Positions 6,633 through 33,578 of a stretch of DNA of 64,000 bases are shown here, in pieces. Both the position numbers and the translations under genes were made by a program. Every line of letters starts with the position of its first letter. Within the stretch, counting starts at the first letter, position 1. Under the pieces are notes generated by a model. The model ran no database searches and was not told where the DNA came from. It worked only from the letters and a program-made list of their open reading frames with translations. The DNA is from Methanosarcina sp. MTP4. GTDB taxonomy: Archaea > Halobacteriota > Methanosarcinia > Methanosarcinales > Methanosarcinaceae. The stretch lies in the NCBI RefSeq assembly GCF_000970045.1, contig NZ_CP009505.1, forward strand, positions 1,736,001 through 1,800,000, given 5' to 3'.

Positions 6633-6778
6633 AGCGTCGGAAAAGTCCATAATTTCCTAAAATTTGCCCAATTTGATCATTGTACATATATTTAATAATT
6701 CCGCATGATGTCGGTTTACTACTTTAAATTTCAATGACTGTGTGCAATAAGTTATAGATTTCAGACTTTTCCGACGCT
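6633..6778. mobile_element. MITE-like element with 15-bp terminal inverted repeats
   Basis: The 15-mer AGCGTCGGAAAAGTC at 6633-6647 is matched by its exact reverse complement at 6764-6778, giving a 146-bp non-coding AT-rich element. No clear target-site duplication was seen in the flanks. The size and perfect ends fit a miniature inverted-repeat element or the ends of a deleted insertion sequence. Confidence 0.55.
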
Positions 6779-6802
6779 CTCGTATTATGTTTGAATTCAA
6801 TC

Positions 6803-6922
6803 GTGGCATGTAGGTTCTGTAGGGAAGCGTGGCGGGTCCCCATTGAGGACGTGCTCGATTTCATCAGGGATGAAGAACTGAGAAAAAGGATAAAGGTGTA
6901 TGTAGAGGAAGAAAAGCAGTGA
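6803..6922 (+). CDS. Small CxxC protein, 39 residues
   Basis: A GTG-started frame encodes 39 residues beginning MACRFCREAW and continuing with a charged helix rich in Glu, Arg and Lys. The CRFC pair may bind a metal. Its stop is followed at once by GAGGAGG and, 12 bases on, by the ATG of the next gene, so the two look like one transcription unit with coupled translation. The frame runs partly into the right end of the MITE-like element upstream, and no ATG is present, so the exact start is uncertain. No family is recognised. Confidence 0.4.
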   Translation: MACRFCREAWRVPIEDVLDFIRDEELRKRIKVYVEEEKQ

Positions 6923-6934
6923 GGAGGAAGTGAA

Positions 6935-7423
6935 ATGACAGATAGATCAACGGTGTGTACATGTGATAACCCGAGATATGACAAGTCTTGGTGTTTTGGG
7001 CGGTGGACAGGGCTCGGATGCCATACAAGGGGCAGGCTCTGGGACATAGATAAGGACGGAGAGCCTTTCATCATTCCGCAGGATTGGGAACTGACCTGTG
7101 AAAACTGCGGAACAGTCCATGCAAAGCGGGAGCAGAAAACCCGCAGACCCCGGAAAATCGTACTCTACGGTCCCTGCCCTGTGTGCGGGGGAGACAACGA
7201 ACAGATCAAATGGGTCAGAATCGAAGGAGGGAAGCACTCTTCTCTAAAGATCGAGACGTTTGAGTCGGAGTGTTGCCCGGACTGCGAAGAGGCGGAAAAC
7301 TGCGGGTATCCGAAGCGGTTTGACTGTCCGAAGTTCAAGGGATGGGAAAAACAGCAGGAAAAAATCATAAATCAGAAATTTGCCAAATTACGGAATTGCC
7401 TGCGAAAATTTCAGACAGTCTGA
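6935..7423 (+). CDS. Cys-rich hypothetical protein with zinc-ribbon-like knuckles
   Basis: A 162-residue protein starts at an ATG preceded by a strong GAGGAGG site. It contains CTC near residues 8-10, CENCG near 54, CPVCG near 87, CCPDC near 112 and two more Cys near the C-terminus, a pattern expected of several zinc knuckles. No enzymatic motif was recognised. It follows the 39-residue CxxC gene closely. Its last ~20 codons lie in a copy of the dispersed repeat seen at 5546-6420, so the C-terminus may have been replaced or cut by the repeat. Confidence 0.6.
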   Translation: MTDRSTVCTCDNPRYDKSWCFGRWTGLGCHTRGRLWDIDKDGEPFIIPQDWELTCENCGTVHAKREQKTRRPRKIVLYGPCPVCGGDNEQIKWVRIEGGKHSSLKIETFESECCPDCEEAENCGYPKRFDCPKFKGWEKQQEKIINQKFAKLRNCLRKFQTV

Positions 7424-7530
7424 AGAACCAGGGGATAGAGTTCGAGTTTTAAGTGAACGGTACTTGGGGAAGTTAGGGAGTTGCATACAGGATAAGTATA
7501 ATAAAAAATTTATAATTCTTGCAGGTCATA
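7360..7530 (+). repeat. Fourth copy of the 5546-6420 repeat family
   Basis: This segment shares AACCAGGGGATAGAGTTCGAG, GGTACTTGGGGAAGTTAG and TATAATTCTTGCAGG-like stretches with 6317-6430. The copy spans the stop codon of the Cys-rich gene at 7423. Confidence 0.6.
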
Positions 7531-8035
7531 ACAGACAGATAACAGGCAGGATCAGTTCAAAAAGCAAGTGCCATATCGGGCCCAGGGGAAACAAGAACTC
7601 CGTTTTTGACGTGCATTTCAAAAGTGAGAATCAAAAAACACTCGCTCATTTCTATATGTTGCCAATGATGAAAACGGGTGTGCGTGGGAAGCGCAAAAGC
7701 GTTCAAAAAATTCGCCTTACCTATATCCCCAAAAAGTTCTACAAAGAACGAGATCCAATCCCACAAATCCCTTCAGTACCGAACACCTCAAGAAAAGCAT
7801 ATATAACCAATCAAATCTATTTTCCACTACCTGATCTGAAAATCAAAAAAGGGGATTAAATCAAACACTTTAAAAGCGTTTAATCATTAACCTGAGGTCA
7901 GGGACCGGACAGTTCACCCTAAATAACACTAAAGTTTTTCCCGAAGCTGCCCGGAATCTTATACCAGTTAAAAAATTGACTCTTCATAAATATCCTGAAT
8001 GGGGTAGGATAGGATTATACAGGAAAGGATGATAA
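7531..8035. other. Spacer before GAPDH
   Basis: An open frame runs on to 7859 but begins inside the previous gene and has no recognisable protein character. The last 170 bases are AT-rich, include a TATA-like run (ATAAATAT, about 7987), and end with the AGGAAAGGATG ribosome site of GAPDH. Confidence 0.4.
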
Positions 8036-9043
8036 ATGTCAAAAGCTAAAATTGCAGTAAACGGATACGGGACCATCGGTAAGAGAGTAACTGATGCTGT
8101 CCAGGCACAGGACGATATGGAGATCATCGGGGTTGCCAAGACCAGGCCTAACTATGAGGCTGCGGTGGCTGCCCAGCTCGGCTATGATATTTACACCCTT
8201 GCCGACAGGGTGGAGTCTTTTGAAAAGGCCGGGATCCCGGCAGCAGGGACTCTTGAGGACATGATCGGGAAAGTCGACCTGGTCGTGGACTGCACCCCCG
8301 GAGGGGTGGGGGAAAGTAACAAGGCGGTGTACGAAAAGGCAGGCGTCAAAGCTATCTGGCAGGGTGGGGAAGACCATGAACTTACCGGTTTTTCTTTTAA
8401 TGCGGTCTCCAACTATGAAGGGGCTTTCGGGCTTGACTTTGTGAGGGTTGTTTCCTGTAACACAACCGGGCTTTGCAGGGTCATATACCCGATAGACCGG
8501 GAATTCGGGGTAAAGAAGGCGAGGATCACTCTGGTGCGCAGAGCCGCTGACCCCAATGATGCAAAGAAGGGGCCGATCAACGCAATTGTCCCGAACCCCA
8601 TCAAGCTGCCTTCCCACCACGGGCCTGACGTAAAGAGCGTGCTTCCGAATATCAACATCAGCACGATGGCCATGAAGATCCCGACAACTCTCATGCACCT
8701 GCACACCATAAATATGGAACTTGAAAAGGACTGCACGGCTGAGGACGTCAAAGAAGTGCTGGGAGCCCAGTCCAGGGTCCGCTTTGTCGGGCAGGGCATT
8801 ACTTCCACTGCCGAGATCATTGAAGTTGCAAGGGACCTGAAACGCCCCAGGAACGATATGTGGGAAAACTGTGTCTGGGACGAGTCCATAACCATCGACG
8901 ATGGGGAACTCTACTTCTTCCAGGCAATCCACCAGGAATCCGATGTTGTCCCCGAAAACGTGGACGCAATCCGGGCCATGATGGAACTGGAAAGTGAAGG
9001 TGCAAAGTCCATTGCGAAAACGAATAAGGCAATCGGACTCTGA
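8036..9043 (+). CDS. gap: Glyceraldehyde-3-phosphate dehydrogenase, archaeal type II
   Basis: This enzyme converts glyceraldehyde 3-phosphate to 1,3-bisphosphoglycerate with NAD(P), mainly in gluconeogenesis in methanogens. The 335 residues match the archaeal family length. The dinucleotide loop NGYGTIGKRV is at residues 9-18, and the nucleophile is Cys141 in VVSCNTTGLCR. It has a good ribosome site (AGGAAAGG, 8 bases before the ATG). A hairpin with a T-run follows the stop directly. The next gene is a fructose bisphosphatase-type enzyme, which also fits gluconeogenesis. Confidence 0.96.
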   Translation: MSKAKIAVNGYGTIGKRVTDAVQAQDDMEIIGVAKTRPNYEAAVAAQLGYDIYTLADRVESFEKAGIPAAGTLEDMIGKVDLVVDCTPGGVGESNKAVYEKAGVKAIWQGGEDHELTGFSFNAVSNYEGAFGLDFVRVVSCNTTGLCRVIYPIDREFGVKKARITLVRRAADPNDAKKGPINAIVPNPIKLPSHHGPDVKSVLPNINISTMAMKIPTTLMHLHTINMELEKDCTAEDVKEVLGAQSRVRFVGQGITSTAEIIEVARDLKRPRNDMWENCVWDESITIDDGELYFFQAIHQESDVVPENVDAIRAMMELESEGAKSIAKTNKAIGL

Positions 9044-9067
9044 GCCCCCTTCCGGGGCTCCTTTTTT
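9042..9067 (+). terminator. Hairpin plus T-run after GAPDH
   Basis: The stem GAGCCCC/GGGGCTC has a 5-base loop and is followed by CTTTTTTC. The stem begins in the GAPDH stop codon. Confidence 0.75.
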
Positions 9068-9105
9068 CGGAACCCGAAACTCCGAAAACGAAAGGTCTGA
9101 CCCGG

Positions 9106-9246
9106 TCCTGACAGATATAAACTCTGACAGAAATGAATCCTGGGATATGAGTCCTGGGATATGAGTCCTGGGATATGAATCCTGAGATATGAATCCTGAG
9201 ATATGAATCCTGACGGATATAAGCCCTGACAGATATGAATCCTGAT
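9106..9246 (+). repeat. 14/16-bp tandem repeat running into the next start codon
   Basis: About nine head-to-tail units of the form TGGGATATGAGTCC or TGACAGATATGAATCC are present. The last unit supplies the ATGAATCCTGA that begins the FBPase/IMPase gene. Neither 14 nor 16 is a multiple of 3, so unit changes shift the upstream frames. Confidence 0.9.
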
Positions 9247-10038
9247 TTCCATTTTTTAAAACTTTGCAGAGAATCTTTTAAAGCCGCCTCGGACGCCACC
9301 TGCGACCTTGCCGGGACCGAGGCTGCAGGCAAGTATGTCTGCATGGGAGCCGACGGGACCCCCACAACGAAGATCGACATTGCGGCCGAGGACGCTATCG
9401 TGGAGGTTCTTAAAGCCGACGGCAGGTCCATGAGAATACTCAGCGAGGAACTGGGTGAGCTGGTAATAGGGAAGTCCCCGGAATTTGCCCTTGTCCTGGA
9501 CCCCCTGGACGGGACCTACAACGCCTCGACCGGGATTCCCTTCTACAACGTTTCGATAGCCGTGGCTACCCCGGACCTTTCGGATCTAAACTTCGGCTAT
9601 GTAAAGAACCTGGCAATTGATGAGGAATACTATGCCCAGGCCGGGAAAGGGGCATACCTGAACGGAAAACCTATCCGGGCTTCCGGGAACTCCGACCTGA
9701 AAAAATCCTGCATCAGTGTTTACGGCTACCGGCAGAACTCGGAAAAGACGTTTAACCTCTACAGAAACGTCCGGAGGGTTAGGCTTCTGGGCAGTGTGGC
9801 GCTTGAACTCTGTTATGTGGCGTCCGGAAAGCTGGATGCCTTTGTAGACGTCCGGCAGGCCCTTCGCCTGACTGATGTGGCTGCAGGGCAGCTCATTTTG
9901 ACGGAAGCCGGGGGGCTTGTTACGGACGGATACGGAGAGGATTTAAATCTTCCGGACAATGTTATGAACAGGGTGGATATGGTCGCTTCCAACGGACATG
10001 TGCATGGGAAACTTTTAAAACTGATTTCAAGGGGATAA
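9235..10038 (+). CDS. Fructose-1,6-bisphosphatase / inositol monophosphatase family
   Basis: This Mg-dependent phosphatase of 267 residues carries the metal ligands Glu71-Glu72 in LSEELGE, the signature LDPLDGTYNAS (88-98), and a C-terminal LTDVAAGQLILTEAGG motif. Archaeal members often hydrolyse both fructose 1,6-bisphosphate and inositol 1-phosphate, and the gluconeogenic neighbour GAPDH favours the first. The ATG at 9235 lies in the last unit of a tandem repeat and has no clear ribosome site, so the true start might be slightly different. NAD kinase follows after one base, and in several archaea these two activities are linked or fused. Confidence 0.92.
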   Translation: MNPDFHFLKLCRESFKAASDATCDLAGTEAAGKYVCMGADGTPTTKIDIAAEDAIVEVLKADGRSMRILSEELGELVIGKSPEFALVLDPLDGTYNASTGIPFYNVSIAVATPDLSDLNFGYVKNLAIDEEYYAQAGKGAYLNGKPIRASGNSDLKKSCISVYGYRQNSEKTFNLYRNVRRVRLLGSVALELCYVASGKLDAFVDVRQALRLTDVAAGQLILTEAGGLVTDGYGEDLNLPDNVMNRVDMVASNGHVHGKLLKLISRG

Positions 10039-10039
10039 T

Positions 10040-10864
10040 TTGTCTATCAAAAAAATAGGGGTCGCATCCCGCTGTGACAGGCCTGAAGTGCTGGGGATGG
10101 TCAGGAAAATCCTGGACGGTTTCAGCCAGAAAGTGGAAATACTCGTCTCCACTGCCACTGCGGACGTCCTGGGCATCCCAGGGGTCTCGGTTGAAGATAT
10201 GAGGGCCGAGGGAGTGGAACTGCTCATAAGCGTAGGGGGAGACGGGACCGTTCTCCGGAACATTGCCAAAATGAAAGACCCTTTGCCCGTCCTTGGTATC
10301 AATATGGGCACTCTCGGCTTTCTGGTGGATGTGGAACCCGAGGACGCGATTGAAGCTATAGAAGAAGTACTTTACGGTTTTTCCTATATCGAAAGAATGC
10401 GGGTTGACGTCTACCTGAACGGAGAAATTCTCGATACCGCCACCAACGAAGTCGCAATCATGTCCGCAAAGCCCGCAAAGATCATCCAGTTCGAAGTAAA
10501 CGTGGATGAATGCCCCCTGGGAGAAATGCGTGCGGACGGCGTGGTTTTTGCAACCCCCACCGGTTCCACCGCCTATGCCATGAGCGCCGGCGGCCCGATC
10601 GTAAACCCCAGGGTAAATGCCATCGTTGTCGTACCTGTGGCTCCTTTTAAACTTTCCTCAAGGCCCTGGGTCATCCCTTCGGACAGTGAGTTCACCGTGC
10701 GCCTTATAGCCTCAAAGGAAGCTGTCGTCGCTATCGACGGGCAGAAGTCCTACAGGATCCGGCCGGAGGATGTGGTGAAACTGAAAAAGTCGAAGTTTCC
10801 GGCACGTTTTGTGAAGGTCTCAGATACCTGCTTTTATGAGCGGGTACAGCGGAAACTGTCCTGA
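10040..10864 (+). CDS. nadK: NAD kinase
   Basis: NAD kinase makes NADP from NAD with ATP or polyphosphate. The 274-residue protein has the family motifs SVGGDGTVLRN (GGDGT at 66-70), NMGTLGFL, and TPTGSTAYAMSAGGPIV. It uses a TTG start, chosen because AAGGGG lies six bases upstream and the next residues match the usual N-terminus. The start is one base after the stop of the phosphatase gene, so the two are surely one operon. Confidence 0.95.
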   Translation: MSIKKIGVASRCDRPEVLGMVRKILDGFSQKVEILVSTATADVLGIPGVSVEDMRAEGVELLISVGGDGTVLRNIAKMKDPLPVLGINMGTLGFLVDVEPEDAIEAIEEVLYGFSYIERMRVDVYLNGEILDTATNEVAIMSAKPAKIIQFEVNVDECPLGEMRADGVVFATPTGSTAYAMSAGGPIVNPRVNAIVVVPVAPFKLSSRPWVIPSDSEFTVRLIASKEAVVAIDGQKSYRIRPEDVVKLKKSKFPARFVKVSDTCFYERVQRKLS

Positions 10865-11181
10865 TAAAAGGCCTTTTTTCTTCCCTTTTATTTCATTTTG
10901 ATTTCATAATGTACGTTTATGCTGTTAACTGGCTGTAAAAGGGTCCTTTTTTACTTCCTTTTCACTTCCTTTTCACTTCGTAATGTACGTTTATGCTGTT
11001 GCCGGAAATTACTTTCCCCTCGGGATAACGTTTATATACATGCAGGTTAAGCTATCCTTAATCTTACTAAAATAGTACATTTTTTGCCTTTAAAAGAATT
11101 TTCCAGCCCTGAAAGGTTTCCACTCAAGCATTAGGGCGATAGCAGGGGCAAATTGCGATCTATCATTAAAATTAATTAAAT
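10865..11181 (+). promoter_or_regulatory. nadK-aksA spacer with TATA box
   Basis: A T-run (GGCCTTTTTTC) after nadK may end transcription. AATGTACGTTTATGCTGTT occurs twice (about 10907 and 10981), a direct repeat 74 bases apart. A strong TATA box TTTATATA lies at 11031-11038, giving a leader of about 120 bases for the homocitrate synthase. Confidence 0.7.
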
Positions 11182-12441
11182 ATGTCCTCACAAGCAGCAA
11201 AAACAAGCACAGGAATCAGTACCATGTCAGAGAGCGAGCAGTACTCCAGAAACACGCTGATGGACTTCATCGATCACCGCCCCCTTGATATAGAAATCTG
11301 TGATGTTACCCTCCGCGATGGAGAGCAGACCCCGGGAGTCGTATTTGACCGGGAGCAGAAGCTGGCGATGGCCAGTGAGCTGGATTCGATGGGAATCGAG
11401 GTTATTGAAGCAGGTTTTCCCGTAGTTTCAGCCAACGAAAAGGAGATTGTCAGGGAAATTGCAAACCAGGGGTACGATTCAAGAATCTGCTGCCTCTCCA
11501 GGTCCGTAAAAGGGGATGTTGACGCTGCTCTGGAATGTGACGTTGACATTGTTAGCATTTTTATCGCCATGTCCGATATGCATCTCCAGCACAAGTACCA
11601 CCGGAGTCTTGAGGAGATGCTGGGCTGTGCTAAAGAAACTATCGAATATGCAACCGATCATGGGCTGAAAGTGCGTTTTGCAGCCGAAGATGCTACTCGG
11701 ACCCCCGTGGACCGGCTCAAACAGGCTTTCCTGGAAGTTGAGAGGGACTACAAGGTGGCTTACGTAAGCCTTGCCGATACCATAGGCATCCTGAACCCTT
11801 CCAGTACCAGCTACCTGGTAAGTGAGATTTTCAAGACGGTCAAAACCCCAATCTGCATCCACTGTCATGACGACCTGGGCATGGCCACCGCAAACACCCT
11901 TGCCGCCGCCGAAGCCGGGGCAAAACAGCTCCACACAACCGTTAACGGAATCGGGGAACGGGCGGGCAATGCCTCTCTTGAAGAAGTGATGGTAGCCCTC
12001 AGGGTGCAGTACGGCATCGACCGCTATGACACTACCAAACTGACTAAACTTTCCAAACTGGTCGCGGAATACTCCGGCATCGCTCCCGCCATAAACAAGT
12101 CTGTGGTCGGGGAAAACGCCTTTACCCACGAGTCCGGGATCCACGTTGCTGCAATCCTGGAAGAGCCCAGGACCTACGAACTCTTCCTCCCCGAAATGGT
12201 GGGCGGAAAGCGCAACCTGATCGTCGGCAAGCACACCGGCACAAAAGCCCTCAAAGGCATAATTAACAGCATCGGTTTCTGCCTTGAGCGGGATGAACTC
12301 TGTGCCCTGATCGATAAGGTCAAGATCTGTACCGAAGAAAAGCACAAGAGTATCCCGAGAGATTACCTTGAAAAGATGATAAATGAAGTAAAGCAGGAAA
12401 AAGTCCACACGATTAAGGAAGAAGGGAAGGTTTCGATCTGA
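11182..12441 (+). CDS. aksA: Homocitrate synthase family, AksA type
   Basis: The enzyme condenses acetyl-CoA with 2-oxoglutarate and longer homologues for the 7-mercaptoheptanoyl chain of coenzyme B. The 419 residues carry DVTLRDGEQTPGV (41-53), the metal-binding HCHDDLGMATAN (about 227-238), GIGERAGNASLEE and HESGIH. It lacks the long C-terminal leucine-regulatory domain of LeuA, which supports AksA over isopropylmalate synthase. An alternative ATG at 11224 (MSESEQ) has a slightly better ribosome site. NifV and CimA relatives cannot be fully excluded. Confidence 0.88.
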   Translation: MSSQAAKTSTGISTMSESEQYSRNTLMDFIDHRPLDIEICDVTLRDGEQTPGVVFDREQKLAMASELDSMGIEVIEAGFPVVSANEKEIVREIANQGYDSRICCLSRSVKGDVDAALECDVDIVSIFIAMSDMHLQHKYHRSLEEMLGCAKETIEYATDHGLKVRFAAEDATRTPVDRLKQAFLEVERDYKVAYVSLADTIGILNPSSTSYLVSEIFKTVKTPICIHCHDDLGMATANTLAAAEAGAKQLHTTVNGIGERAGNASLEEVMVALRVQYGIDRYDTTKLTKLSKLVAEYSGIAPAINKSVVGENAFTHESGIHVAAILEEPRTYELFLPEMVGGKRNLIVGKHTGTKALKGIINSIGFCLERDELCALIDKVKICTEEKHKSIPRDYLEKMINEVKQEKVHTIKEEGKVSI

Positions 12442-12817
12442 AATGCATAAGAAATGAGAATTTCTCTAACTCTTCTTCATTACTTATTTCTAACATTCAG
12501 CATAGGTAAAACAGAATCTTTAGACTGATTTTGGATGTGCTGAACAATCCCTTTTCATTGTTATTTTTAGAAGTGTTATTTTTAGAAGTGTTATTTTTAG
12601 AAGTGTTATTTTTAGAAGTGTTATTTTTAGAAGTGTTATTTCTATAATTATTTTTAAGCTTTCCTAATATAAATTAAATAGAAGTTACGCACTTGAGAAG
12701 AAAAACAAGCACTTGATACCTTCCCATGAACATTATTGGTTAGATAGTTTGGTGTCTCATGCCACTGGTTTTTGCTTCAACTGCGTAAGTCCTATAAACA
12801 AAAATAAGTTACGTTTT
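12442..12817. repeat. Spacer with 15-bp tandem repeat (12561-12635)
   Basis: TTATTTTTAGAAGTG occurs five times head to tail at 12561-12635, then decays. The rest of the spacer is AT-rich, and no gene or RNA was seen. Confidence 0.9.
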
Positions 12818-24692: not shown

Positions 24693-25526
24693 ATGAAGGT
24701 CATTTCCGTAGTAGGCTACAAGAAATCAGGCAAGACAGCTCTCGTCTCCGCCCTGGTCCAAAAACTTTCCGGCTTTGGCTCGGTGGGCACGGTAAAGCAC
24801 ATGGGGGAATTTCGCTACAACCCCGAGGACACGGACACTGGCAGGCACTTTGATGCGGGTGCGGACACGGTAATCGGGCTTACTGAAACCGAGATGGTCA
24901 GCTTCTCAGGAGACCCCGACCTTGAGCGGGCTCTTGACGCCCTCTGCGACCGGGGCCTTGATTTTGCGGTAGTCGAAGGCTTTAAGGAGAGCAAGCTTCC
25001 GAAAATAGTTCTCGGAGACCTTGAAGACCTCTCCAATGTCCTGATAAGGCTTCCGGAAAACCCGGACCTGCACGAGACCCTTTCAGCTTCCATTTTCGGC
25101 CTGATCCTGGCCCAGCCCGACCGCTACACCCTTGACGACCTCATAAAACGGATCCGCCAGGAACCGCAAATAAGAAACGCAGGCGCAATTGGCACCTTCA
25201 CCGGCATCGTCCGCGAACTTGAAGGGGACACGAAAACCGACAGGCTCGAATTCGAGAAATACGAACCCGAAGCCTCAAAAGTCCTGGAAAAGATCCGGGA
25301 AGACCTCAAGCAAAAAGAAGGCATCCTTGAAGTCCTCATCCACCACAAGACCGGCGTCCTCGAAGCCGGAGAAGACATCGTCTACATCGTGATCGCATCC
25401 GCCCACAGGACCGAACTCTTCCCCGCCCTCAGCGAAGCCATAGAACGGGTAAAAGCCGACGCCCCGATCTGGAAAAAAGAATTCACGGAAAAAGAAGAGT
25501 TCTGGGTCCACGACCGGGAACACTGA
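24693..25526 (+). CDS. MobB-MoaE fusion protein (molybdopterin biosynthesis)
   Basis: The first ~135 residues are MobB: the P-loop VVGYKKSGKTALV (residues 6-18), the VKHMGEF turn and VVEGFKES. MobB is a GTP-binding adaptor that aids guanylation of the molybdenum cofactor. From about residue 145 it becomes MoaE (GAIGTFTGIVRE, LEFEKYEPEA, HKTGVLEAGEDIVYIVIASAHR, WKKEF), the large subunit of molybdopterin synthase. Both parts keep their key motifs, so the protein probably works in two steps of one pathway, needed for formylmethanofuran dehydrogenase in methanogens. MobA follows after 156 bases. Confidence 0.92.
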   Translation: MKVISVVGYKKSGKTALVSALVQKLSGFGSVGTVKHMGEFRYNPEDTDTGRHFDAGADTVIGLTETEMVSFSGDPDLERALDALCDRGLDFAVVEGFKESKLPKIVLGDLEDLSNVLIRLPENPDLHETLSASIFGLILAQPDRYTLDDLIKRIRQEPQIRNAGAIGTFTGIVRELEGDTKTDRLEFEKYEPEASKVLEKIREDLKQKEGILEVLIHHKTGVLEAGEDIVYIVIASAHRTELFPALSEAIERVKADAPIWKKEFTEKEEFWVHDREH

Positions 25527-25682: not shown

Positions 25683-26348
25683 ATGAGTGAAAAAACAGAA
25701 AAAAAAGCATCTAGAAGCGCAATCGTCCTTGCAGGAGGCAGGGGCCGCCGGATGGGCATGGTCGAAAAAGCCCTCCTGGAATTTGAAGGAAAAACAATCC
25801 TCGAACGCCTGCTCGATTCCCTTTTCCAGGCTGTGGACGAGGTCATAATCTCGGTCAGGGACCGAACCCAGGAAGCCCGCCTGAAGCCCGTAATCGAAAA
25901 ATTCCCGGACCGCGAGATCCGCTTCTGCTTCGACACCAGGGAAGACTTCGGCCCCCTTGAAGGCATCCGCGCTGGCCTGCTCGAAGCAAGCTCCGAATAT
26001 GCCTTCGTCTGCGCCTGTGACATGCCTTTCGTAAACAGCAAGGCTGTGAATTTCCTTTTCGAAAAAGCCGAAGGACATGATGCTGCCCTCCCGAAGCAGG
26101 AAAACGGCAGGTTCGAGACCCTCCATGCGGTTTATTCCAGAAAGATGGTTCCTGAGATCGAGAAGGCTTTCGAGAAAGGGGAAAGGTTTGTGCTTGCACC
26201 GATTTATGCGATGGGGGATGTGGTGCAGGTCGAGGTTTCGGAGATCAGAGGAATTGATCCTGAGCTGGTGACTTTTGAGAATATTAATACGGTTGAGGAT
26301 ATTGAGAGGATAATGGGGTCAGCAGCGGGGGAGAAAGTGGGGTTGTGA
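25683..26348 (+). CDS. mobA: Molybdenum cofactor guanylyltransferase MobA
   Basis: MobA attaches GMP to molybdopterin. The 221-residue protein has the nucleotidyltransferase signature IVLAGGRGRRMGMVEKALLE (14-33), FGPLEGIRAGL and the metal-binding CDMPF. It lies just after mobB-moaE in the same direction. Residues 133-221 and the following spacer are duplicated at 29307-29830, where no intact gene remains. Confidence 0.93.
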   Translation: MSEKTEKKASRSAIVLAGGRGRRMGMVEKALLEFEGKTILERLLDSLFQAVDEVIISVRDRTQEARLKPVIEKFPDREIRFCFDTREDFGPLEGIRAGLLEASSEYAFVCACDMPFVNSKAVNFLFEKAEGHDAALPKQENGRFETLHAVYSRKMVPEIEKAFEKGERFVLAPIYAMGDVVQVEVSEIRGIDPELVTFENINTVEDIERIMGSAAGEKVGL

Positions 26349-26620
26349 GAGATTCCGGTTAACCGTAGTTTTTCTGTTTTTTTAGTGGTCAGAGTAACCG
26401 GAATGGTGTATTCTGTCGTTATTGTTCCGCGCCTCGGCGCGGCTTTTCCAGTGTAATTTCTTAAAATCGAAAGTTATTTAGTCAGCAACACCCTCTATTT
26501 TTCAGATTTAATTATTTTTTTATGTAGGGACTATCTCCGGATAGCGGCTGCAATATTGTATTGAATTTTTCATTGGATATAATGGCAAACTCGTGAAGAC
26601 AGTGAGGCAGGGATATATAG
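26349..26620 (+). promoter_or_regulatory. mobA terminator hairpin and roco1 upstream region
   Basis: The hairpin CCGCGC-CTCG-GCGCGG at 26427-26442 with CTTTTCC ends mobA. The remaining AT-rich stretch, ending GGGATATATAG, precedes roco1. The whole spacer is repeated at 29577-29842 with moderate divergence. Confidence 0.6.
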
Positions 26621-29236
26621 ATGGAATCGAACGAGATTAAGGATCTGATTAGAGAAGCTCAAAGAAATAAAGTAACCACATTAGACCTGTCATACAAAAA
26701 TCTTACTTCGCTGCCGCCGGAAATCGCAGAGTTGAAAAATCTTACTGAACTTGACATATCTGATAATCAATTGAGTTCGCTGCCGCCGGAAATCTCAGAG
26801 TTGAAAAATCTTACTAAACTTGACATACAACATAATCAATTGACTTCGCTTCCGCCGGAAATCTCAGAGTTGAAAAATCTAACTCAACTTGACATATCTG
26901 GTAATCAATTGAGTTCGCTGCCGTCTGAAATCTCAGAGTTGAAAAATCTTACTCAACTTTACATACTTAGTAATCAGTTGAGTTCGCTTCCGCCTGAAAT
27001 ATTAAAGTTGAAAAATCTTACTCAACTTGACATGCGTGAAAATCAATTGAGTTCGCTGCCGTCTGAAATCTCTGAGTTGAAAAATCTTACTGAACTTAAC
27101 GTATCTTCCAACATATTGAGTTCGCTGCCGTCTGAAATCTCTGAGTTGAAAAATCTTACAACATTTGACATATATGATAATCAATTGACTTCTCTGCCGC
27201 CTGAAATCTCAAAGTTGAAAAATCTTACGACACTTGTCATATTTTATAATCTATTGACTTCGATACCGCCTGAAATCTCCGAGTTGAAAAATCTTACTAA
27301 ACTTGACATATCTGGTAATGAATTGACTTCTCTGCCGCCTGAAATCTTCAAGTTGAAAAATCTTACAACATTTAACATATATGATAATGAATTGACTTCT
27401 CTGCCGCCTGAAATCATAAAATTAGATCTGGCTATAATGTGGGAACATCAATTCGGAAAAGAAGGAATAACTTTAGGAGAGAATCCTCTTGAAAATCCTC
27501 CTGTGGAGATTGTGAAACAGGGCAGGGAGGCAGTTTTCAATTATTTCAAGTCGCTAAAAGGTGAAAAGAAGCCATTAAACGAAGTTAAAGTTTTGCTGGT
27601 AGGAGACGGCGGTGCAGGCAAAACTTCACTGGTAAAAAGGATCCTTGGTGAAGGTTTTGATGGAAATGAGCATCAAACCCAGGGGATTAATATCAAGGGA
27701 TGGGAATTCAAAAATAAAGATAAGAAAATAAAAGTTAATTTCTGGGACTTTGGTGGCCAGGAAATAATGCATGCCACCCACCAGTTTTTTCTTTCCAAGA
27801 GGAGTCTTTACATTCTTGTTTTGAATTCAAGGAGGGATGAAAAAGCCGAGTACTGGCTCAAGCATATACGGAGTTTTGGAGGAGATTCACCGGTACTGGT
27901 TGTTTTGAACAAGATTGATGAAAATCCTTCTTTTGAGTTGAACAGGAAGTTTTTACAGGAGAAGTATCCCTCAATAAAAGGTTTCTTCCGAATTTCATGT
28001 AAGGATAACAAGGGAATTGAGGTCTTTTCCAGAAAAATAAAAAAAGAAGTTTCAAAAGTTGAACATCTGCAAATAGAATGGGCTAAAAGCTGGTTCAACG
28101 TGAAGACCAGATTAGAGAATATGAATTGTGATTTCATTACTTATGAAAAATATAGAGATATGTGTATGGAAGAAAACGTGGGTGATAAATCATCCCAAAA
28201 TACCCTTGTTGATTTTCTTAATGATCTGGGAGTAATTTTACACTTTAAGGATATATCATTGCTTGATACGCATGTGCTTGAGCCTAGATGGATTACTGAC
28301 GGCGTATACAAGATCATAAATTCGGAGACTCTGGTGAATAGAAAAGGAGTTCTTCAGTTCGGTCTGCTGGATGAAATTCTAAAGCAGAAAAATGAAAATG
28401 ACTATTACTATCCCCCAACTCGCTATAATTACATTATCAATTTAATGAAAAAATTTGAGTTATGTTATACAATTGATGAACAAACCGTGCTCCTTCCTGA
28501 CCTGCTGGCGGTTCCTGAGCCCAATTTTGCTTTTGACTCTAACGGAGCCCTGAAGTTTTTCATCGAATACGATTTTCTACCACGTTCAGTTATGCCCCGC
28601 TTTATAGTGAAGATGAACAGGGACATAAAAGATAATTTGCAGTGGAGAACAGGTGTGGTTCTGGAAAATAAGGACTTTAATTCCTGTGCGGTGGTTAAAT
28701 CTGATAATGAGGCAAAGAGAATCTACATTAGTGTGAATGGCGGCCAGAAACGCGATTATTTTTCAAGTATATTGTTCAATTTACGGGAAATTAACCGGAG
28801 TTTTGAGAAGTTAAAAGCTGTCGAAAAAATTCCTGTTCCTGATGAACCCGATGTAGCTGTCAGTTACGACCATCTGGTTTACTTGGAAGAGGTTGGTGAA
28901 GAGAAGTATAGGCCTGAAGGATCAAGAAAAGCATATACCGTTAGGGACTTGCTTGGAACGGTTAACAATGGGAGTAAACAAGAAGAATTGTTGGAAGAAA
29001 TCCTGCACATTCTTAAGAAGAGAAATGAAGAAGATAAAATGGAAGAGATTGTCCTAATTTTGAGTAATCTAACAAAGACTCAAGCAAGAGAATCTGACGA
29101 CAGGGCAACTTTATCAAGGAAATTAAATAAAACTATCACACTTCAACCTAACGTGATGGGATTTGGATTCGATTTTAATGCAGCTATTGACGAAGCATTG
29201 GATCGATATTACGATTGGAAGAATAAAAAGATGTAA
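26621..29236 (+). CDS. LRR-Roco GTPase 1
   Basis: The 871-residue protein has about 11 leucine-rich repeats of 23 residues (LPPEISELKNLTxLDISxNQL, about 20-280). The ROC GTPase domain follows, with P-loop GDGGAGKT (328-335), the DFGGQE switch II and NKID specificity loop (near 427). A COR dimerisation domain (about 480-790) and a helical tail come after. Roco proteins are the family of LRRK2; the LRR probably binds a partner and the GTPase acts as a dimerisation-controlled switch. The gene is clearly more AT-rich than mobA. It is one half of a segmental duplication with roco2. Confidence 0.92.
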   Translation: MESNEIKDLIREAQRNKVTTLDLSYKNLTSLPPEIAELKNLTELDISDNQLSSLPPEISELKNLTKLDIQHNQLTSLPPEISELKNLTQLDISGNQLSSLPSEISELKNLTQLYILSNQLSSLPPEILKLKNLTQLDMRENQLSSLPSEISELKNLTELNVSSNILSSLPSEISELKNLTTFDIYDNQLTSLPPEISKLKNLTTLVIFYNLLTSIPPEISELKNLTKLDISGNELTSLPPEIFKLKNLTTFNIYDNELTSLPPEIIKLDLAIMWEHQFGKEGITLGENPLENPPVEIVKQGREAVFNYFKSLKGEKKPLNEVKVLLVGDGGAGKTSLVKRILGEGFDGNEHQTQGINIKGWEFKNKDKKIKVNFWDFGGQEIMHATHQFFLSKRSLYILVLNSRRDEKAEYWLKHIRSFGGDSPVLVVLNKIDENPSFELNRKFLQEKYPSIKGFFRISCKDNKGIEVFSRKIKKEVSKVEHLQIEWAKSWFNVKTRLENMNCDFITYEKYRDMCMEENVGDKSSQNTLVDFLNDLGVILHFKDISLLDTHVLEPRWITDGVYKIINSETLVNRKGVLQFGLLDEILKQKNENDYYYPPTRYNYIINLMKKFELCYTIDEQTVLLPDLLAVPEPNFAFDSNGALKFFIEYDFLPRSVMPRFIVKMNRDIKDNLQWRTGVVLENKDFNSCAVVKSDNEAKRIYISVNGGQKRDYFSSILFNLREINRSFEKLKAVEKIPVPDEPDVAVSYDHLVYLEEVGEEKYRPEGSRKAYTVRDLLGTVNNGSKQEELLEEILHILKKRNEEDKMEEIVLILSNLTKTQARESDDRATLSRKLNKTITLQPNVMGFGFDFNAAIDEALDRYYDWKNKKM

Positions 29237-29246
29237 AAACTTCCAA

Positions 29247-29306
29247 TTCCTCGATAAAGACCCTCTACCCTTCTACGTGCGTATAATGCAACTCCTCAAC
29301 CCTCCT
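29247..29306 (-). pseudogene. Fragment of the TudS-like gene at a duplication junction
   Basis: About 60 bases (CTCGATAAAGACCC and the following CTACCC..TGCGT..CTCAACCC) match 33137-33196, inside the TudS-like gene on the same strand. The match stops exactly where mobA sequence begins. Confidence 0.75.
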
Positions 29307-29576
29307 GACGCTGCTCTCCCGAAGCAGGAAAACGGCAGGTTCGAGACCCTTCACGCGGTTTATTCCAGAAAGATGGTGCCTGAGATCGAGAAGGCTTTCG
29401 AGAAGGGGGAACGGTTTGTGCTTGCGCCGATTTATGCGATGGGGGATGTGGTGCAGGTTGAGGTTTCGGAGATCAGAGGAATTGATCCTGAGCTGGTGAC
29501 TTTTGAGAATATCAATACGGTTGAGGATATTGAGAGGATAATGGGGTCAGCGGTAAGGAAGAAAGTGGGTTTGTGA
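29307..29576 (+). pseudogene. 3' fragment of mobA (duplicate)
   Basis: These 270 bases align with no gap to codons 133-221 plus stop of mobA at 26079-26348; only scattered substitutions are seen. There is no start codon or catalytic N-terminus, so no working MobA can be made. Reading frame and stop are preserved, which points to a fairly recent event. Confidence 0.92.
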
Positions 29577-29842
29577 AAGATTCCGGTTAACCGTTGTTGA
29601 TTCTTTTTTTAAGTGCCGGAAAGACCTGAATGGTGTATTCTGTCGTTTTTGTTCCGCGCCTCTGCGCGGCTTTTCCAGTGTAATTTCTTAAAATCGAAAG
29701 TTATTTAGTTAACAACACTCTCTATTTTTTAGTTTTAATTATTTTTCTATGTAGAGATTGTTTCAGGATAGTGGTTGTAATACTGTATTGAATTTTTCTG
29801 GTCACTATTATAGTTGATATTTAAGGAAAGGGTAGAACAAAA
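29577..29842 (+). promoter_or_regulatory. Duplicated spacer before roco2
   Basis: This is the second copy of 26349-26620, with the hairpin CCGCGC/GCGCGG at 29654-29669 followed by CTTTTCC. An AGGAAAGGG ribosome site precedes the roco2 ATG. Confidence 0.6.
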
Positions 29843-32842
29843 ATGGATACAAATGAAGTTAAAGATCTTATTAGAGAGGCTAAAAGAAGCAAAAAAACTG
29901 TATTAATTATCTCAATTAAAGAACTAACCTCTCTGCCGCCTGAAATTTCAGAATTGAAGCACCTCACTGAACTTTCAATATACAATAATCAACTTGCTGT
30001 CCTTCCATCTGAGATTTCGGAGTTGAAAAATCTTATTAAACTTTCCATCTGTGGAACTCAACTTACTTCCCTGCCACCAGAATTTTCAGAGTTAATAAAT
30101 CTTATTAAACTTGATCTCTCAGGAAATCGATTTGCTTCGCTACCACTTGAAATCTTTGAGTTGAAAAATCTTACTGAATTATCCATTTCTTTTAATCATT
30201 TGACTTTTCTGCCACCTGAAATTTCAGAATTGAAAAACCTTACTGAATTGTCAATATATAATAATCAACTTACTTTCCTTCTGCCTGAAATCTTTGAGTT
30301 GAAAAATCTTATCAAACTTAACATATATAATAACCAATTGACTTCGTTACCTCCCGAAATCTCAAAGTTGAAAAATCTTACTCAACTCGATATATCTGGA
30401 AATCAGTTAACTTCATTGCCACCTGAAATCTCAAAGTTGAAAAATCTTACTACACTTAACATATCTGGTAATCAATTGACTTCGCTGCCTCCTGAAATCG
30501 CAGAGTTGAAAAATCTTACTCAACTCTCCATATATAATAATCAATTGACTTGGCTGCCTCCTGAAATCGCAGAGTTGAAAAATCTTACTCAACTCTCCAT
30601 ACGTAACAACCAATTAACCTCCATACCACCTGAAATCAGCAAGTTGAAACATCTTACTATGCTCGACATCTCTTTCAATCAACTTACTTCGCTACCTTCT
30701 GAAATATCTAAGTTAAAATACCTTGCTGAACTTTACATATCAGGAAATCAATTGACGTCTTTCCCTTCTGAAATCTTGGGACTGAAAAATATTGAGAAAC
30801 TTGATTTGTTTGGCAATAAATTAAGTTCTCTACCTTCTGAAATCTCCAAGTTGAAAAACCTTGCTGGACTTGACATCTCTGGAAATCAATTGACGTCTTT
30901 ACCTTCTGAAATTTCCAAATTGAAATATCTTACTATACTTAACATCTCTGGAAATCAATTAACTTCTTTACCTCCTGAACTCTTGTTATTAGGTTTGGAT
31001 ATAGAGTGGATGTTAGGTCTGGATTTGGAGGGAGAATTTGGGTTGAAATCCAAAACAGTACTTTTAGAAAATAATCCTTTTGAAATCCCTCCAGTGGAGA
31101 TTATAAAACAGGGTAGAGAGGCAGTTATTAATTATTTCAAGTCGCTAGAAGGTGAAAAAGAACCGTTAAATGAAGTTAAAGTTTTGCTGGTTGGTGAAGG
31201 AGGTGCAGGCAAAACTTCACTTGTAAAGCGGATTTTTAGGGAAGACGTTGATGGAAATGAACCACAGACACAGGGCATCAATATCAGTAAATGGGCAGTG
31301 AAAAACGGGGGGCGGGAAATCAAAGCTAATTTCTGGGATTTTGGCGGGCAGGAGATCATGCACGCCACTCATCAGTTCTTTTTGTCCAAAAGAAGTCTTT
31401 ATATCCTGGTGCTCGACGGGAGGAAGGATGAAAAACCTGAGTACTGGCTCAAACTCATAGAAAATTTTGGTGGTGATTCTCCGGTTCTGGTTGTGATTAA
31501 TAAGATCGATGAAAACCCTGCTTTTGACCTGAACCGGAAGTTTCTGCTGGATAAGTATCCTTCAATCAGGGGATTTTACCGGCTTTCCTGCAAATCGGAC
31601 GAGGGAATTGAGGATTTTTCGAAAACTCTGGATGAGGAATTGAAGGCAGTTAAGCATCTTGAAATCAAATGGCCAAAAAGCTGGTTCAATGTAAAAAGAA
31701 AACTTGAAAAAATGTGCCCGAGTTGCACTTCTTATGTTGCAGATGAGGAGGAGTGTGCACACTGCAATTTCATCCAGTATGATGATTATAAAATGATGTG
31801 CGATGAAGAAGGGATAAGCAGCGAATCAGAACAGAATACTCTTGTTGACTTTCTTCATGATCTGGGAGTAATATTGCATTTCAAAGATATCCCTCTCCTG
31901 AATACGCATGTTCTTGAACCCGAATGGGTTACTAATGCGGTGTATAAGCTGGTTAACTCAAAGGAGCTTGCCGAGTCCAGAGGAATTCTGAAACTTGATA
32001 TGTTCGCTGAGATTTTAAAGAAAAGTACTGAAAAGGATTTCCATTATCCTCCTCATCAGTATGGTTTTTTTATCAGTTTGATGAAGAAATTCGAACTTTC
32101 CTATGACCTTGATGAAAGCACTGTGCTCCTCCCAGGTTTACTGGAAATTCAGGAACCAGATTTCGAGTTTGATTATGAAGGGGCTTTGAGATTTGTAATT
32201 GACTATGATTTCCTTCCACCTTCCGTAATGCCCCGTTTTATCGTGAAGATGAACAGGGACATAAAAGATGATCTGCGCTGGCGTACCGGGGTGGTTCTGG
32301 AGGACAGAGGTTTCAATTCTACTGCTGTAACCATAGCAGACATTGAAGCAAAACGAATAAGCATTTATGTAAATGGAGATCAAAGAAGGGATTATTTCTC
32401 CGTTATCCTCCAAAGGTTCCGGGAAATAAACGGCAGTTTTGAGAAGTTGAAAGCCATCGAAAAAATTCCGTTGCCTGATGAACCTGAAATAACTGTTGGT
32501 TATGAACATCTTATTAAACTGGAGTTAAGGGGAATTGAAACTTACATGCCCGACGGTTCTGATAATGAATACAAAGTAAGTGAGTTACTTGGAACGGTCA
32601 TCGGTGGAAATGGTTTGATGGAAATTTTGAAGGAGCTACTGCAAAAAACAGAAATGAATGAAAAGGAGATCCTGAAGATCCTTCCAAATCTGCAAAAAAT
32701 TGAATCTGGATCTGATATTAGCGATTCTTTATTGGAAAAAATTAATCGAAGTTTTACAATGAACCCTAACATTTGTGGTGTAGGGCCGAACTTTACTGAA
32801 ATGATCAATTTATATTTGGAGAAAAAGAAGAGGCGGTCTTAA
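29843..32842 (+). CDS. LRR-Roco GTPase 2, with a CxxC-CxxC insertion
   Basis: This 999-residue paralogue of roco1 has about 16 leucine-rich repeats (roughly 25-395) against 11. ROC has P-loop GEGGAGKT (451-458), DFGGQE and NKID. Between ROC and COR it carries CPSC and CAHC (Cys625, 628, 638, 641), a possible zinc knuckle missing from Roco1, which has only a single Cys there. COR and the tail follow. The two proteins may form homo- or hetero-dimers, since Roco proteins dimerise by COR. The difference in LRR number suggests different ligands. Confidence 0.92.
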   Translation: MDTNEVKDLIREAKRSKKTVLIISIKELTSLPPEISELKHLTELSIYNNQLAVLPSEISELKNLIKLSICGTQLTSLPPEFSELINLIKLDLSGNRFASLPLEIFELKNLTELSISFNHLTFLPPEISELKNLTELSIYNNQLTFLLPEIFELKNLIKLNIYNNQLTSLPPEISKLKNLTQLDISGNQLTSLPPEISKLKNLTTLNISGNQLTSLPPEIAELKNLTQLSIYNNQLTWLPPEIAELKNLTQLSIRNNQLTSIPPEISKLKHLTMLDISFNQLTSLPSEISKLKYLAELYISGNQLTSFPSEILGLKNIEKLDLFGNKLSSLPSEISKLKNLAGLDISGNQLTSLPSEISKLKYLTILNISGNQLTSLPPELLLLGLDIEWMLGLDLEGEFGLKSKTVLLENNPFEIPPVEIIKQGREAVINYFKSLEGEKEPLNEVKVLLVGEGGAGKTSLVKRIFREDVDGNEPQTQGINISKWAVKNGGREIKANFWDFGGQEIMHATHQFFLSKRSLYILVLDGRKDEKPEYWLKLIENFGGDSPVLVVINKIDENPAFDLNRKFLLDKYPSIRGFYRLSCKSDEGIEDFSKTLDEELKAVKHLEIKWPKSWFNVKRKLEKMCPSCTSYVADEEECAHCNFIQYDDYKMMCDEEGISSESEQNTLVDFLHDLGVILHFKDIPLLNTHVLEPEWVTNAVYKLVNSKELAESRGILKLDMFAEILKKSTEKDFHYPPHQYGFFISLMKKFELSYDLDESTVLLPGLLEIQEPDFEFDYEGALRFVIDYDFLPPSVMPRFIVKMNRDIKDDLRWRTGVVLEDRGFNSTAVTIADIEAKRISIYVNGDQRRDYFSVILQRFREINGSFEKLKAIEKIPLPDEPEITVGYEHLIKLELRGIETYMPDGSDNEYKVSELLGTVIGGNGLMEILKELLQKTEMNEKEILKILPNLQKIESGSDISDSLLEKINRSFTMNPNICGVGPNFTEMINLYLEKKKRRS

Positions 32843-33068
32843 CTAGACGTCTATTTGAAGTTTTTTGCGTGGAAAATAAGTCCGATCAACTGCAAGGTTG
32901 CAATGTTCATTTTTCACGTTTCTTTCTACAAATTTTCATGGAAAAGCCGGTCAGCAAGCTGACCGGTGAGAGCCCGGGGTTCTGAAATCCATTCGAAACC
33001 CGGCTATTCCGGATCGAGTAAAAAACCGATCATTCTTTTCCACACCGGGCTTTCTTCTTAATTTCTCC
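32843..33068 (-). terminator. Hairpin after the TudS-like gene
   Basis: On the minus strand, stem CCGGTCAGC/GCTGACCGG (32947-32966) is followed by CTTTTC, a terminator-like arrangement for the gene at 33069. Nothing else was seen in this spacer. Confidence 0.6.
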
Positions 33069-33578
33069 TCACTTTCTTCCCCTGCGGGCGTCTTCTATTT
33101 CAAAAATCACTTTCCTTCTTTTCAGCTCCTTCTTTATCTCCTCGATAAAAACGCCCGACCCTTCCACATGCGTGTGATGAAAATCCTCAACCCTTCCGGG
33201 TTCGCCGCCGACACTGGTTACTTCCACTCCGCAGGAGGGGCTTTTCGGGACGCCGAGGATTTTGATTTTTGCGCCGTTTGCTGCGAAGTCTTCGAGGAGG
33301 TCGGCGTAGTGCCTGAAGATTTCCCGGCAAAAGCGCCTGTAGGCGGGGTGGTCGAGCTGGTCTTTAGTGATTTCCCTTCGCCTCATGCCGAAGAACATGG
33401 CTTCGGGGCAGGGGAGCTGGATTACGTTCATTCCTGTGACGTCAAGGGGCTGTACGGGCTTTACTCCTTTGATCCTTGCGGGGGGGTTCAGGAGGCAGTG
33501 GCCGAGGACGAGGATTTCTTCGGGGGTGGTGGGGGTTTTTGGGGTTGGAGTTTCGTTATAGGTTTCCAGGTTTTTCAT
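33069..33578 (-). CDS. TudS-related putative desulfidase (CD3072/DUF523-like)
   Basis: The 169-residue protein has GHCLLNPPARIKGV (Cys28), VIQLPCPEAMFFGMRR (Cys57) and KSPSCGVEV (Cys116). Three Cys in these contexts are the expected [4Fe-4S] ligands of the TudS family, which removes sulfur from thiouracil. Members of this sub-branch have not been tied to a substrate, so the reaction is inferred. The first 20 residues are Thr/Pro-rich and poorly conserved; an internal start is possible. A ~60-base piece of its 3' half is also present at 29247. Confidence 0.75.
   Translation of the reverse strand: MKNLETYNETPTPKTPTTPEEILVLGHCLLNPPARIKGVKPVQPLDVTGMNVIQLPCPEAMFFGMRRREITKDQLDHPAYRRFCREIFRHYADLLEDFAANGAKIKILGVPKSPSCGVEVTSVGGEPGRVEDFHHTHVEGSGVFIEEIKKELKRRKVIFEIEDARRGRK

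Follow-up and report, generated by a model that had tools for sequence, protein, structure and literature searches.

Two Roco genes, roco1 and roco2, stand head to tail between a mobA-like gene and a TudS-like gene in Methanosarcina sp. MTP4, and truncated copies of both border genes lie between them. The question raised by this locus is how the pair arose, i.e. whether the duplication still visible at the junction also made the genes that flank it. The window is the whole stretch of 64,000 nucleotides analysed here (contig NZ_CP009505.1, positions 1,736,001 to 1,800,000), and coordinates are counted from its first letter. The comparison set comprised 112 Methanosarcinaceae genomes overall, with three congeners of genus g1 (G001-G003).

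The Roco slot and its scar

The slot is bordered on the left by an intact mobA-like gene (NTP_transf_3; 25683-26348, forward strand), whose orthologues in the three congeners are 90-93% identical, and on the right by an intact TudS-like gene (33069-33578, reverse strand). On the forward strand, a first spacer (26349-26571) and a genus-typical leader (26572-26620), 92% identical to that of the congener G003 and to that of Methanosarcina G081 and unlike the leader of roco2, precede roco1 (26621-29236), which encodes 10 leucine-rich repeat (LRR) units and a type-1 Roc-COR module devoid of a Cys-rich insert. It is followed by a tudS fragment (29248-29303, reverse strand), the remnant of a TudS-like gene once located 3' of roco1, then by the join (29304-29306) and by a mobA fragment (29307-29576, forward strand), which is truncated at its 5' end, still in frame and has retained its stop codon. 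Further on the forward strand come a second spacer of the genus type that ends abruptly at 29798 (29577-29798), the foreign leader of roco2 (29799-29842), which is like that of the Methanosarcina metagenome-assembled genome (MAG) G100 and has no match in congeners, and roco2 itself (29843-32842), with 15 LRR units and a type-2 Roc-COR module. The hallmark of type 2, a Cys-rich insert in COR-A, is 17 residues long in roco2 (CPSCTSYVADEEECAHC; 31715-31765, forward strand). Besides, a MobB-MoaE fusion gene lies upstream of mobA (24693-25523), and a third and more distant roco (40% identity in Roc-COR) is found in the same genome beyond the window (G000:C1:2170242-2172281).

Three repeats, all beyond chance, define the scar. 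The 3' end of mobA (26079-26348) recurs gap-free over 270 bases at 29307-29576 (94.1% identity, E 9e-119), the first spacer (26350-26571) matches the second (29578-29798) at 87% over 223 bases (E 4e-72), and the tudS fragment (29248-29303) matches 33139-33194 within the TudS-like gene over 56 bases (82%, E 2e-11) as well as the tudS of relatives, with up to 86% identity to congeners. The original prediction had called the gap-free recurrence of 270 bases of mobA with a copy of the spacer, a piece of tudS of about 60 bases just to its left and a join at about 29306/29307; the first two are borne out by these alignments, and the join is real and can be placed at 29303-29307. Its account of the unequal length of the two units is likewise correct, the difference coming from the LRR units (15 in roco2 vs. 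10 in roco1), from the 17-residue Cys-rich insert of roco2 and from a shorter gap after roco1 (about 12 bases to the matching tudS point vs. about 297 after roco2).

Homology between the spacers stops at 26571/29798 and the last 45-50 bases or so before either roco start codon are unrelated, so that the repeated copy stops short of the roco genes. At the join, as read from the sequence, the tudS and mobA pieces are separated by three unassigned bases and neither shared sequence nor microhomology is evident. The join was found once in this genome and is absent from the three congeners (four genus genomes compared), the slot of G003 being seen only in part as its contig ends inside the LRR. A second, truncated mobA beside an intact copy was found in none of the other 111 of the 112 family genomes, partial hits being due to the edge of a contig in G008 and to a split gene in G075.

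Two ancient Roco types in one slot

In their Roc-COR part, roco1 and roco2 share about 63% identity and their synonymous divergence is saturated (dS 2.05), a gulf that the original prediction overlooked. In the Roc-COR tree, roco1 falls in a type-1 clade (10 rows, support 100/99) and roco2 in a type-2 clade (12 rows, support 100/100), both of which also include Methanosarcina genes. Type-2 proteins carry a Cys-rich COR-A insert of about 15 residues, with an incomplete set of cysteines in some, which is absent in type 1. Forcing roco1 and roco2 into one clade costs 371 log-likelihood units (p-AU 1.6e-59). Regarding roco1, its dS to an off-slot type-1 gene of G002 (0.36) is normal for that species pair, for which the median is 0.40. 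Regarding roco2, its sister is a Methanosarcina gene (G097; 99/96) from genus g13, a genus that we take to be Methanosarcina, apart from the type-2 genes of congeners; grouping with the latter is rejected (p-AU 8e-4), and the dS of 0.80-0.95 to them is too large for vertical descent. Moreover, roco2 is a mosaic, as 29793-29958 is 84.5% identical to a type-1 gene of the MAG G100; the foreign part starts at about 29,798, and the match spans the leader and the first 115 or so coding bases.

The members of the pair are thus much older than the scar, and therefore the duplication that left the scar did not create them. The central claim of the original prediction, that in-place doubling of a mobA-spacer-roco-tudS unit made both genes, is refuted by the tree, the AU test and the dS values, unless one of the genes was replaced afterwards, as in the two-step route discussed below. 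Such a doubling would account for the head-to-tail arrangement, the repeated flanks with their junction and the weak grouping of the mobA copies, but it calls for parts of equal age that are mutual closest relatives, and here Roc-COR dS reaches 2.05 vs. 0.25 in the flank, the AU test speaks strongly against it and either roco has closer relatives in other species than in its neighbour; we give it next to no credence. More generally, genes next to a recognisable duplication junction can differ in age from the junction itself.

Relatives do show the single-copy order mobA-roco-tudS that was expected of them. It is found on one contig in eight genomes (G001, G002, G104, G100 in two versions, G088, G076, G097 and G096) and apparently split across two contigs at the LRR in G086, G089 and G102; in seven others mobA is followed by tudS with no roco found between them (G092, G074, G084, G080, G077, G082 and G095), and roco remnants occupy the slot in G103, G079, G083 and G075. 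In Methanosarcinaceae the slot is usually either empty or occupied by a single roco, which may belong to type 1 or to type 2. As for the idea that two unlinked rocos with the same fragments would point to a different origin, it is matched in part by G002, which has two unlinked rocos and a shared spacer (type 2 in the mobA slot, type 1 elsewhere with about 200 bases of the same spacer) without the mobA/tudS scar. The off-slot type-1 roco of G002 lies in two pieces (L125 on G002:C59, 7187-9064; L126 on G002:C23, 1-398), which would belong to one gene; L126 is a contig end with the matching N-terminus and the spacer, followed by transposase-like open reading frames (535-1666) and a predicted NTPase-TPR gene.

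Tandem rocos or remnants thereof occur in G094, G087, G093 and G078. In G078 (L128, flipped, 11217-11872), a 3' piece of tudS and then part of another roco come after a type-1 roco, an arrangement that may be an older stacking scar of independent origin. In G094 (L138, flipped, 6762-12512), the type-2 roco has an LRR array of 23 units or more and is directly followed by a very divergent second roco with tudS on its 3' side, and a mobA relic is absent between the two rocos.

Exchange within the slot is seen directly in two close relatives, G104 (L131) and G076 (L135), both assembled in two contigs. Identity between them is mostly 88-97% from mobA through the whole LRR, with one window at the start of the LRR at 85%; it drops to 68% in Roc-COR, because one is of type 1 and the other of type 2, then returns to about 90% at the gene end and 92% in tudS. 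The Roc-COR half was swapped in the slot between the two, the LRR and flanks being common to both. Across the family, each class of leader and N-terminus is paired with both Roc-COR types, and the tree of three neighbouring genes requires at least three switches of type, or at least 10 changes when three states are distinguished (type 1, type 2 or off).

Age of the mobA copies and origin of the pair

Between the two mobA copies there are 13 synonymous and three nonsynonymous changes (dS 0.25, dN 0.015). Since this dS equals the interspecies median of neighbouring genes (0.246 to G001 over 15 genes, 0.232 to G003 over 16 genes), the copies resemble one gene taken from two species. When simulated as neutral since the split, with matching on synonymous changes and on the presumption that the mobA fragment is functionless, the fragment accumulated 20-26 nonsynonymous changes on average, and none of the 600-800 runs per setting gave three or fewer; a simulation with both copies constrained fits the observed counts. 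A stricter branch-wise test on the six changes specific to the fragment is marginal (p 0.03-0.08). Being neither near-identical nor decayed, the copies fit neither a recent nor an old local duplicate, and the simplest reading is that both worked in separate lineages until a recent joining, the fragmentation of mobA being recent. The repeat segments are short (270 + 223 + 56 bases), and so are those on which the mobA fragment appears slightly nearer to congeners (dS to G003 of 0.24 vs. 0.34 for the intact copy) and on which intact mobA and tudS diverge from congeners more than most neighbouring genes. The two mobA copies are weakly supported as mutual closest relatives (90/90 and 82/84), as simple duplication would predict too.

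An ancestral tandem of type 1 and type 2, with one partner lost nearly everywhere and the mobA fragment kept similar by gene conversion, would be in line with the wide occurrence of both types in the slot and with the tandem rocos or remnants of four relatives. Yet 111 other family genomes are devoid of a comparable mobA fragment, roco2 groups with genus g13 and not with congeners, and a fragment dS of 0.25 implies that conversion ended long ago, after which neutral decay would be expected; this history is very improbable. Also very improbable is an assembly artefact fusing the slots of two strains: the divergence of the flanks does equal that between species and assemblers can be misled by repeats, but the genome is a single contig of 4.21 Mb, 99.9% complete with 0.24% contamination, and a chimera could hardly be expected to have tudS and mobA both cut short at its join.

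The best explanation of the scar is that it marks the recent end-to-end joining of two long-separated alleles of the slot, and roco1 and roco2 are better described as alternative alleles of a single slot that now sit stacked. We consider it probable that alleles were stacked here at a polymorphic Roco slot, leaving the scar, through recombination that was homologous at one end and illegitimate at the other. A donor piece from a diverged congeneric lineage, comprising the mobA 3' end, the spacer, a roco and part of tudS, would have recombined with the resident slot through a homology anchor at one border (mobA or tudS), while at the opposite border, at 29303-29307, the fragments of tudS and mobA would have been joined illegitimately. 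Neither roco would have replaced the other, so that both were retained, the cut tudS after roco1 abutting the cut mobA before roco2; at an earlier stage, a Methanosarcina-type source would have supplied the roco2 unit with its leader and the body of the gene. Homology to mobA, spacer and tudS is available on both sides of the acquired segment, and the crossover may lie on either. Two features expected of illegitimate acquisition are present, namely a join with little or no homology, as read from the letters, and DNA from another lineage, as indicated by the constraint on mobA and by a roco2 unlike the genes of congeners. We infer the one-ended mechanism, the donor and any benefit of holding two genes. 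Homology-facilitated illegitimate recombination is known from bacteria with natural competence and from conjugation in E. coli (PMC3240628), and has been invoked for the type VI secretion (T6SS) immunity arrays of Vibrio (PMC5361080).

The main rival to one-step stacking supposes two steps, a recent tandem duplication of the resident unit that left the scar and then ordinary homologous recombination, within the mobA, spacer or tudS homology, that swapped one unit for a diverged allele. The end structure would be identical, replacement within the slot does occur (G104/G076) and roco2 has an internal breakpoint at about 29798; it nevertheless requires two events where one would do, and the intermediate, a scar with two like rocos, was not seen among the relatives examined, so that we hold it to be rather unlikely. 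Recombination between the direct mobA copies, 3.2 kb apart, could delete roco1 again.

The Roco proteins and the possible role of the slot

Both proteins match the Pfam Roc, COR-A and COR-B models above cut-offs, with COR directly after Roc, N-terminal LRR arrays of 10 units (roco1) and 15 units (roco2) of 23 residues each, and intact G1 (GDGGAGKT in roco1, GEGGAGKT in roco2) and G4 (NKID) motifs. From these domains, they are likely ligand-binding LRR sensors on a dimeric Roc-COR GTPase switch. The closest solved structure to roco1 is 4WNR (682 bits, vs. 524 bits for roco2). The LRR-Roc-COR order, the P-loop and NKID are shared with group 1 Roco proteins (Chlorobium Roco and Methanosarcina barkeri Roco2, PDB 4WNR), from which roco2 is set apart as a member of another archaeal type, one whose COR-A contains a Cys-rich insert. 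Two other assignments were rejected, i.e. a defence system, for which PADLOC gives only an unconvincing hit in the P-loop region, to mads_3 (E about 0.001), and the LRR effector/internalin families of NCBIfam, whose hits are far below cut-offs and reflect a generic LRR signal; a limited literature search found no paper linking Roco to anti-phage defence. Rocos from bacteria and archaea are used in biochemistry as models of human LRRK2. A 2019 review (PMC6337361) describes knowledge of their physiological role as very scant.

LRR counts in the slot range from 4 to 23 units. Among within-gene repeats, the highest pN/pS values are at positions 13 (3.5), 22 (1.4), 18 (1.4), 3 (1.3) and 12 (1.3), most scaffold positions lying at 0.04-0.35, values that are suggestive at most, since the repeat pairs pooled for them are not independent; positions 12, 13 and 18 lie beside the leucines of the beta-strand and are expected to face outward. 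Two ancient types, recurrent loss, changes in LRR length and module swaps suggest adaptation to changing ligands or opponents and not housekeeping. More tentatively, and with considerable doubt on our side, the mobA-tudS slot may be an archaeal recognition locus whose polymorphism is kept by selection. Species would then trade the two ancient Roc-COR signalling types, reshuffled leaders and LRR arrays that span 4 to 23 units and vary at concave-face residues, and the genome studied here may have gained a two-receptor genotype by stacking both types.

In the T6SS immunity arrays of Vibrio cholerae (PMC5361080), a homologous anchor and an illegitimate join stack alleles and leave relics, at a locus where alleles otherwise swap, as proposed for the Roco slot; there, a new module displaces the effector and orphan immunity genes stay, whereas the archaeal slot has retained both of its genes complete, they are from an unrelated family, and the mechanism is putative. 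Rhs loci and contact-dependent toxins (discussed in PMC5361080) have, as here, a constant 5' part and an exchangeable 3' part, except that the module exchanged in the Roco slot is a GTPase switch and not a toxin domain. Natural chimeras of the G104/G076 kind offer test material.
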